A DNA stretch of 59,195 bases from an uncultured Lachnospiraceae bacterium (lineage in GTDB: Bacteria > Bacillota > Clostridia > Lachnospirales > Lachnospiraceae). Below the pieces are notes generated by a model, which worked only from the letters and a program-made list of their open reading frames with translations, did not search any database and was not told the DNA's origin. The DNA lies in the NCBI GenBank assembly GCA_902781215.1, contig CACZIO010000009.1, forward strand, positions 1-59,195. The letters run 5' to 3'. Of the stretch, positions 57,366-59,195 are shown in pieces (position 1 is the stretch's first letter; each line of letters starts with the position of its first letter). The position numbers and the translations under genes are program-made.

Positions 57366-57677
57366 TTATTGAATATACCGGCTGTTGACCCAGCCGCTGA
57401 TCTTGAGCCCGGGCGCATATACCCAGACATGGTTGACAACCTTGGGATCGGGGCTGACATTGACGCTGCCGACGACCTCGACCTGGTCTCCGTTGACAAG
57501 GCGGCCGATGATATATTCATCTCTGGTGACGGGCTGACTGCGGACGGCAAGCCAGCCGTCTCCATCCAGGCCTGTCACGGTCATGGTCCTGCCGCGTTCC
57601 GAATTGACGATCTGCTGGACGCCGCCGGCGGCCTTTTCAAGTTCGTCCAGCGGGATTTCTCTGAATGTTCCTGTCAT
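57366..57677 (-). CDS. double-glycine leader peptide fused to an SH3b domain
   Basis: 103 aa from ATG 57677, whose AAGGAG site overlaps the stop codon of the exporter gene upstream. Residues 1-19 read MTGTFREIPLDELEKAAGG, a typical leader for C39 peptidase exporters, with cleavage expected after G18-G19. The remaining 84 residues contain no cysteine and form an SH3b-like domain (GWLAVRSQPV, IIGRLVNGDQVEVVG, HVWVYAPGLKISGWVNSRYI). SH3b domains bind wall peptides or other ligands. Inference: this is the secreted substrate of the adjacent exporter. Typical RiPP precursors have a short core instead of a folded domain. Confidence 0.8.
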   Translation of the reverse strand: MTGTFREIPLDELEKAAGGVQQIVNSERGRTMTVTGLDGDGWLAVRSQPVTRDEYIIGRLVNGDQVEVVGSVNVSPDPKVVNHVWVYAPGLKISGWVNSRYIQ

Positions 57678-57687
57678 AATAATCTCC

Positions 57688-59195
57688 TTATTCACTGGTG
57701 ATCAGCTGACTGTACAGGCCGCCGCGCGCGTAGAGCTCCTCGTGGGTGCCCCGCTCCACGACCACGCCCTTGTTGAGGACGATGATCTCGTCACAGTCAC
57801 GGATGGTGGACAGGCGGTGGGCGACGACGATGCAGGTGATGCCCCGGTCGCTGATGGCCTTGACCGCCTCGTACTCCGTCCGGGCATCGAGGGCGCTGGT
57901 CGCCTCGTCCAGAATGATGATAGAGGGATCCTGGGCCAGGACCCTGGCGATCTCCAGGCGCTGGCGCTGGCCGCCGGACAGGTCCTTGCCGTTTTCCGTG
58001 ATCCTGCCGTTATAGCCGCCCGGCCTTTGCATGATATCGTCGTGGATCTGGGCGTCGCGGGCCGCCAGAATGACTTCAAAATCCTCGATCGTGTCATCCC
58101 ACATGCGGATGTTGTTGGCGATGGTGTCCTCAAACAGGACGATGTCCTGGTCCACGACCGCAACCGAGCCCGTAAAGACACTCCTGGGAATGTCTCCGAT
58201 GGGCTTGCCGTCAAAGAGGATCTCGCCGCTCCAGGGCTTGTAGAGGCCGCAGATGAGCTTGCTGATGGTCGACTTGCCGCAGCCGCTGCTGCCCACGATG
58301 GCGACCCGGCTTCCCGGCTTCAGGGTCATGGAGAAGTCCCGGACCACAGGGTCCGACAGGCGGGAATAGCCAAAGGTGACATCCCGCAGTTCCACCTGTC
58401 CGGAAAGTTTGGAGTAATCGATGTCGTCCCGGACGGCCTCGCTCCGGACATAGGGATCATCCGGATATTCCATGACGTCCTCGACGCGCTCCATCTCTGT
58501 GCGCATCTCCTGGATGGTCTGCCCCGCGCCGATCAGAGTCGTGACCGGCCCCATGAAGGAATTGAGAAAGCCCTGGAAGACCGTGATCATACCGATGGTG
58601 AAACTGCCTTTCATGGCAAAGAGGACCCCCAGGAAGAGGACGGTGTAATTGGCGGCCGTGCTGATGAAACCTGGCAGGATCCCGAAGCGCATATTCATTT
58701 CAAAAAATTTGACGTTCTGCGTATTGACCGATGCCTGGTAGCCGGACCACTTGCGGAAAAATCCGTTCTCCGCGCCGGAGGATTTGATGGTCTCCGACAT
58801 GCTGATGCCGGCCAGCGTCGCGGAGGCCAGCTTGCCCGCGTCCCGCATCTGGACGCGCATGATGTTGACCCGCTTCGCGGACATATATCTGGCAAACAGG
58901 AGATTGAAAAAGCTCGACGCCAGGCCGACCAGGGTCAGGACCGGGCTGTAGCGGACCATGAGTACCAGATAAAAGACCATCATGATGCTGTTAAGGGCCA
59001 GCGGCGCCACAGTCTGGACCAGGGTTCCGGCAATGGTGGCATTGGTATCCTGCCGCTGCAGGATATCGCCCGCCATGCGCTGTGAGAAGAAATCCATGGG
59101 AAGGCGCAGGACCTTCCACATGTAGGTCGTGTTGCCGATGACCGCCATCTTGCCGTTGATCCGCAGCGAATAGATGGTCTGGGCCCAGGTGACGA
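57688..59195 (-). CDS. NHLM-type peptidase/ABC exporter (5' end outside window)
   Basis: About 500 C-terminal residues are present; the gene continues beyond the window edge. An ABC exporter membrane domain with several helices precedes the ATPase: Walker A GSSGCGKST, signature LSGGQRQRLEIARVL, Walker B IIILDEATSAL and H-loop AHRLS. The ATPase wording (VDQDIVLFEDTIANNIRMWD, PGGYNGRITENG) matches the NHLM bacteriocin-system ABC proteins, which carry an N-terminal C39 peptidase; that part is not visible here. It would cleave double-glycine leaders and export the mature part. Confidence 0.88.
   Translation of the reverse strand, partial: VTWAQTIYSLRINGKMAVIGNTTYMWKVLRLPMDFFSQRMAGDILQRQDTNATIAGTLVQTVAPLALNSIMMVFYLVLMVRYSPVLTLVGLASSFFNLLFARYMSAKRVNIMRVQMRDAGKLASATLAGISMSETIKSSGAENGFFRKWSGYQASVNTQNVKFFEMNMRFGILPGFISTAANYTVLFLGVLFAMKGSFTIGMITVFQGFLNSFMGPVTTLIGAGQTIQEMRTEMERVEDVMEYPDDPYVRSEAVRDDIDYSKLSGQVELRDVTFGYSRLSDPVVRDFSMTLKPGSRVAIVGSSGCGKSTISKLICGLYKPWSGEILFDGKPIGDIPRSVFTGSVAVVDQDIVLFEDTIANNIRMWDDTIEDFEVILAARDAQIHDDIMQRPGGYNGRITENGKDLSGGQRQRLEIARVLAQDPSIIILDEATSALDARTEYEAVKAISDRGITCIVVAHRLSTIRDCDEIIVLNKGVVVERGTHEELYARGGLYSQLITSE

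Follow-up and report, generated by a model that had tools for sequence, protein, structure and literature searches.

A double-glycine-leader SH3b gene directly behind an NHLM-type ABC exporter in a Lachnospiraceae genome encodes a probable exporter cargo

The present study analyzes one end of a 59,195 b stretch of DNA (the window), which is the entire contig C9 of a Lachnospiraceae assembly that totals 3.33 Mb over 132 contigs. On the minus strand at 57366..57677 (stop codon 57366-57368) lies a gene for a 103-aa protein consisting of a 19-residue double-glycine (GG) leader (57621..57677; MTGTFREIPLDELEKAAGG), with predicted C39 cleavage after G19, and a mature 84-residue SH3-fold domain of SH3_3 type (57369..57620; VQQIV...SRYIQ), assigned from a Pfam match below cut-off, AlphaFold2, and Foldseek. 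Ahead of it on the same strand is the C-terminal part of an NHLM-type ABC1 (peptidase/permease/ATPase) exporter gene (57688..59195; ORF 57688-59193), with 501 open codons. The exporter stop codon TAA occupies 57690-57688 and the SH3b start codon ATG 57677-57675, leaving a gap of 10 nt, and a minus-strand, Shine-Dalgarno-like AAGGAG at 57684..57689, 6 nt ahead of the ATG, shares two bases with the exporter stop codon. An earlier note on this DNA had described a 19-residue GG leader fused to an 84-residue SH3b domain in a gene directly behind the exporter, with a ribosome binding site overlapping the exporter stop, and both observations held. Downstream of the SH3b gene comes one for an M16C/PreP-like protease; no immunity gene was recognized between the two, and a promoter and terminator scan around the SH3b gene found nothing.

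Because the window is a whole contig, the exporter gene is truncated at the contig boundary. The window ORF matched positions 211-709 of TIGR03796 (NHLM_micro_ABC1) with 635.2 bits and the end of contig C1 matched positions 1-200 with 251.8 bits, the gene being scored as two pieces on two contigs against a cut-off of 853.3 bits; whole TIGR03796 genes above that cut-off were present in 31/62 genomes of the genus. When the whole genome was searched for the C39 family, a single match exceeded the cut-off, namely the exporter N-terminal C39 part at the extreme end of C1 (L012 10191-10856; TIGR03796, and PF03412 with 116.9 bits). The match to positions 1-200 on C1 and 211-709 on C9 makes it likely that both ends belong to one gene. 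No overlap between the C1 and C9 contig ends was found; from their sequences we infer the joint, the two ends being most likely two parts of one exporter gene. The C39 part was closest to LahT (6MPZ, Lachnospiraceae C6A11; E=1.9e-63), followed by PCAT1 at 5e-18, and in the alignment to LahT/PCAT1 the ECGA, DHFVV, and NDPA segments, with their Cys, His, and Asp, were kept, the Asp presumably being catalytic. Cys and His are given as the catalytic residues of C39 domains in the accessible portion of PMC6959990.

Other members of the cassette were also on C1, upstream of the C39 part. An NHLM ABC2 permease of 741 aa (L012 5572-7797) scored 721.4 bits with TIGR03797, for which the cut-off is 709.4 and a relative (L059) fell slightly below at 696.6 bits. 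A small HlyD-like ORF of 143 aa (L012 9695-10126) showed weak similarity to TIGR03794, with 26 bits over the first 46/421 positions and below the cut-off of 156.2; the corresponding ORFs of two relatives scored 27.1 and 31.9 bits, and in 3/3 ORFs checked the match was confined to the N-terminal part. Such a small gene was present at 42/45 exporter loci, mostly at 138-180 aa (range 85-232), and this short ORF occupies the place expected for the 421-position NHLM HlyD. A Xan_ur_permease gene in opposite orientation likewise lies upstream of the C39 part on C1, and inspection by eye of the C1 ORFs at 120000-130857 (10.9 kb) and of the next genes of the window showed no modifying enzyme. Of the components that the earlier note had suggested looking for beyond the window, the C39 domain, whose absence it had named as refuting, and the second permease were thus present; the HlyD-like protein was there as a small ORF that does not reach the family cut-off, and modifying enzymes were not seen in the 10.9 kb. 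This last result lends no support to the earlier suggestion that the SH3b protein carries something produced further upstream. An assignment of the SH3b gene as a RiPP precursor was rejected, as there was no match to an NHLP or Nif11 leader and no modifying enzyme was seen nearby.

The leader carries I(-12), E(-8), L(-7), A(-4), and G(-2)G(-1). The PCAT leader consensus is L-12xxxE-8L-7xxxxGG in the available text of PMC6959990, and LahT, according to the accessible part of PMC6363468, tolerates varied sequence after GG and needs L-7, L-12, and a suitable residue at -4. Set against PCAT substrate criteria of L-12, L-7, a hydrophobic -4 residue, and GG, the leader agrees throughout, with I-12, L-7, A-4, and GG. 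In alignment A1 of 20 GG-SH3b proteins, position -12 was M, L, I, or V in 20/20, with L(-7) and GG each also in 20/20; this alignment leaves out multi-SH3b proteins with Sec-like N-termini (L004, L036 of 255 aa, L038, L054), near-identical copies (L032, L047), a false match to an ABC ATPase (L040), and a frame with a stop (L053). The leader scored 28.9 bits with the leader model, in which it is itself included. These features are consistent with a substrate that would be cleaved by the C39 domain after G19 and exported.

The 103-aa protein matched PF08239 (SH3_3) at E=2.3e-5 with 24.9 bits, under the Pfam cut-off of 27, while its paralogues in the same genome scored 30.1 bits (C61) and 12.6 bits (C12), and 15/20 family members had an SH3_3 match at E<=0.01. 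NCBIfam gave no match for the protein at E<=0.1. AlphaFold2 predicted residues about 30-102 as six strands in an SH3-like beta fold with pLDDT around 90, as against pLDDT below 50 for the leader and first 26 residues, which bears out the folded SH3 domain proposed earlier. The best 50 structures listed by Foldseek were mostly SH3 domains (best E 0.05, none at or below 0.001) but also took in larger chains such as a B. subtilis YrvJ complex at rank 1, Src-type kinases, FUT8, and NlpC2. Among the nearest solved chains were an autolytic lysozyme (E 0.014) and a cell wall hydrolase (E 0.61). SH3_3 domains are found in cell-wall hydrolases and in Sec-type surface proteins, and related genomes have proteins with the same SH3b subtype in two to five copies behind Sec-like N-termini; the present protein differs in having a single SH3b domain, no catalytic domain, and a GG leader in place of the Sec signal. 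With less confidence than for export, we suggest that the domain may bind wall material or peptidoglycan.

Patterns of recurrence were examined within the genus and beyond it. There were 13/61 genomes, counting the source genome and its relatives, that matched the 103-aa protein at E<=0.01, all of the same genus and with some multi-SH3b or false matches among them. TIGR03796 gave 45 matches in 35/62 genomes of the genus, and inspection of all 45 loci showed a GG-SH3b gene no more than 1 kb from the cassette at 11, in 11 species. The distance was 10 nt in the source genome and 227, 178, 306, 87, 55, 87, 860, 12, 130, and 159 nt in the others, where it was taken from first-start ORFs and where the 860-nt case is on the opposite strand. 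Recurrence of the pairing in related species suggests that the pump secretes small domains, beyond peptide antibiotics. The other 34/45 exporter loci, some of them cut by contig ends, had no GG-SH3b gene within 1 kb. The association of such genes with C39 exporters asked about in the earlier note does recur; most GG-SH3b genes are unlinked.

This distribution also bears on an alternative in which the protein would serve as a secreted signal or assist the exporter itself, as a small extracellular SH3 domain binding the mini-HlyD protein or a receptor. Linkage to the cassette at 11/45 loci would suit such a role, as would the restriction of the mini-HlyD match to the beginning of TIGR03794 (three proteins checked) and the presence of partner-switch type regulators beside some cassettes, but the 34/45 loci with no linked gene (contig ends included) and the scattering of GG-SH3b paralogues are unlike an obligate accessory, and we regard this explanation as unlikely.

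A second set of 34 GG-SH3b or SH3b loci came from a named genome collection by means of patterns that lie in the SH3b domain rather than the leader; it partly overlaps the loci of the genus search, so the two sets are not independent. Its records mostly have Lachnospiraceae titles, with many RUG and UBA assemblies and one isolate scaffold, FE2018. An exporter was found in the flanks examined at 0/34 of these loci, many of which are on contigs that end nearby. All single-SH3b proteins whose N-terminus was visible had a GG leader (17/17 loci), as opposed to 0/15 loci by eye for proteins with two to five SH3b copies, in which the N-terminus looks like a Sec signal; the two remaining loci were cut or had no open ORF. 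The earlier note had held that SH3b homologues lacking the GG leader and unlinked to exporters would refute it, and this is in part the case, for the multi-SH3b proteins (15/34 loci), whereas single-SH3b relatives keep the leader and are themselves mostly unlinked to an exporter. Outside the genus, GG-SH3b genes occurred in 4 genomes (G095, G166, G311, G458) among 396 others of the family. In a draw of 392 genomes from the order, the families of 365 of which are unlisted, there were 7 matches at E<=1e-8, namely the source genome and six of the same family in which the match begins after the leader. A phage origin of the SH3b protein was considered and rejected, the scan of a viral contig collection having yielded no relative.

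Leaders and exporters occurred together across genomes. Leader model A2 matched at E<=0.05 in 31/62 genomes of the genus, comprising 29/35 genomes with an exporter and 2/27 without (Fisher p=1.2e-9, treating genomes as independent and ignoring relatedness), and one of the two exporter-less matches sits inside a 490-aa frame and is probably false. Six of the 35 exporter genomes had no leader match at this threshold; in two of these (G084, G085) a GG-SH3b gene with a weaker leader lies beside the exporter. In a family sample of 397 genomes from 334 genera, 15 had a leader match at E<=0.001, and an exporter at E<=1e-120 was present in 14/15 of these compared with 61/382 leader-negative genomes (Fisher 3e-10, again with relatedness ignored and with incomplete genomes able to hide an exporter). 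Counting only NHLM-like exporters (at least 690 bits, or cut) the figures were 13/15 and 28/382, and excluding the source genome, which is in the model, they were 13/14 and 61/382. The exception is G095, which has GG-SH3b genes and no exporter match; one of these genes has the same contig start position as the gene at locus L214, whose first 75 residues equal those of one from another species, so that transfer or contamination is possible.

It could be argued that the protein is cytoplasmic, its leader being what is left of a decayed signal or matching only by chance. SH3-fold domains are found inside cells as well, and G095 has such genes with no exporter match, yet GG and L-7 are kept in 20/20 aligned proteins, leader matches summed to 106 in the 35 exporter genomes against 3 in the 27 without, and leader dN was below leader dS in 12/16 close pairs, with leader dS = 0 in the other four. 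We consider this explanation extremely improbable. The close pairs were drawn from the GG-SH3b genes of nine relatives, in which 16/36 pairs with dS of 0.11-0.48 had whole-gene dN/dS of 0.03-0.26; the gene in the window, for which there was no close enough relative, is outside this set. Such values indicate conservation over the full length of the protein in the relatives, which would not be expected of a rapidly evolving toxin core. That the combination of leader and SH3b domain is more than chance appears confirmed, in terms of sequence comparison, by its presence in many species and by purifying selection on the genes of the nine relatives.

The conservation is relevant to the proposal, made earlier, of a bacteriocin that docks on peptidoglycan, here in the walls of competing bacteria, with killing or inhibition as the result. 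NHLM and PCAT exporters are known for natural products and antimicrobial peptides (accessible part of PMC2887384) and SH3b domains direct lysins such as lysostaphin to walls (PMC6461655, likewise in part), but Pfam and NCBIfam matched no catalytic domain in the 84-residue mature part. Nor does the setting fit, with the protease gene next to it, no recognized immunity gene adjoining, purifying selection in relatives, and several dispersed copies per genome (three clear ones in the source genome), and for these reasons the proposal is unsupported. A precedent is available from Treponema denticola, a member of another phylum. Its proteins with a bacteriocin-type signal domain are encoded beside bacteriocin-type ABC transporter genes and are secreted, and in the accessible text of PMC11879956 killing was not seen. 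They differ in that, according to the same portion of that source, their mature parts resemble a beta-barrel region of another protein and not SH3. We judge a killing role to be improbable. Nor does the protein fit a class II bacteriocin, being an 84-residue SH3 domain with no neighboring immunity gene recognized.

The explanation that we prefer, with a probability of about 0.68, is that the exporter encoded directly ahead of it cleaves and exports the 103-aa protein as one of several cargos, and that the product is retained as a non-catalytic, probably wall-associated protein. The C39 domain would dock on the leader via I-12, L-7, and A-4 and cut after Gly19, and the transporter would then move the 84-residue SH3b domain out of the cell, probably unfolded or loosely folded. 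The domain would fold outside and stay at the cell surface, and the same exporter would serve GG-SH3b proteins, a zinc-ribbon protein, and other GG proteins. As to biological role, a surface coat, adhesion factor, or shield is suggested more weakly than export, as opposed to a killing bacteriocin. A wall or adhesion role is the likeliest of the functions proposed earlier for the SH3b protein, and a role in immunity is unsupported.

There were several other candidate cargos. The source genome has three clear GG-SH3b genes (C9, C12, C61) and one diverged (C54), a zinc-ribbon GG protein and another GG protein on C1, and on C87 two longer GG proteins flanking a radical SAM gene. In the latter region (L271 5283-7680) the gene is of radical SAM/SPASM type and one of the longer GG proteins matches a fulvocin-related family below cut-off. 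The loci gathered contained 98 distinct GG-leader proteins, a sample whose class mix is biased because the leader model was built mostly from SH3b leaders, and 34 of them scored at least 49 bits with the SH3b profile. A second SH3-like family, recognized by eye and starting ITPIWVKVTASSLNCRYTPNG, had no significant Pfam name; also present were proteins judged by eye to be zinc ribbons, short peptides resembling RiPPs, and one CW_7 protein. This last (L079, G018:C86) is 83 aa long and joins a wall-binding CW_7 domain (E=1.2e-17) to a GG leader; the combination was found in 1/62 genomes, matches at E<=0.001 in 12 others being in other frames. One locus in the same genus (L158, G066:C354) resembles a RiPP cluster, since an exporter of this type is accompanied there by 14 short GG ORFs and by a radical SAM gene, and another (L195, G024:C21) has 16 small GG-leader proteins by the leader model in 8 kb, several zinc-finger-like by eye.

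A broader explanation is conceivable, although we hold it only tentatively and at somewhat less than even odds: in this Lachnospiraceae lineage the RiPP-type C39 exporter may have become a general means of secreting small folded modules (SH3b, the second SH3-like family, CW_7, and zinc ribbons), whose sole signal would be a GG leader some 13-25 residues long. Wall-binding modules would coat or mask the wall, for example by shielding ligands needed by foreign lysins or bacteriocins, and the route would replace Sec-exported repeat proteins bearing the same domain.

The component parts are of known kinds, and the novel aspect is that an SH3b cargo is repeatedly paired with an NHLM-type exporter. 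NHLM/NHLP export (TIGR03794/03796/03797; PMC2887384, in its accessible part) shares the C39-ABC1 and ABC2 families, the GG leader, and cargo genes that lie near the cassette together with scattered paralogues. It differs in that its cargos combine a modifiable core with a leader of nitrile-hydratase or Nif11 type, as opposed to SH3b with a 19-aa leader and no modifying enzyme seen beside the gene, and in a HlyD model of 421 positions against the mostly 138-180 aa (85-232) HlyD-like proteins here. LahT/PCAT1 (6MPZ; 4RY2, 6V9Z) are alike in C39 domain, at 1.9e-63 to LahT, and in leader consensus, but the tested substrates of LahT are RiPP precursors. The PCAT1 cargo CtA, with 66 residues after a 24-residue leader, is similar in size to SH3b, whereas the available text of PMC6959990 calls its cargo region flexible and makes no mention of an SH3 fold. 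Given this 66-residue cargo and the secreted GG-signal proteins of T. denticola, SH3b export would be no new category. A GG-leader SH3b cargo, or SH3b as a recurrent cargo of an NHLM-type exporter, was not seen among the open-licence PMC papers listed by the literature searches, and the accessible part of PMC13289728 mentions neither SH3 nor NHLP. NHLM and PCAT loci have been mined for peptide antibiotics, and the linked cargo here is a conserved non-catalytic SH3 domain. If it is exported, the range of C39 exporter cargos widens, GG-leader hits should be treated with caution as not always bacteriocins, and gut Firmicutes would offer a group of small surface proteins amenable to testing.

Several minor patterns were seen at individual loci. 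GG-SH3b genes adjoin, by eye, an hrcA-like gene in L055 (G027:C189), L061, and L057, which we take to encode a heat-shock repressor, and contig C189 of G027 has three near-identical GG-SH3b copies. The GG-SH3b ORFs of L214 and L215, from records of two differently named organisms (UBA3720 and RUG710), are of equal length with the first 75 residues identical, which suggests gene transfer or contamination, judging from the sequences. G166 has one exporter match at E<=1e-120 and 15 leader matches, and its GG-SH3 paralogues (C13, C76, C88, C90, C92-C94) are at or near contig ends, as if these repeats had broken the assembly; some of the 15 hits may be one gene seen twice. Genes of partner-switch type, for SpoIIE-type phosphatase, HATPase, and STAS proteins, adjoin cassettes or GG genes at L059 6813-9392, L162 4805-5558, and L270 6375-6674.
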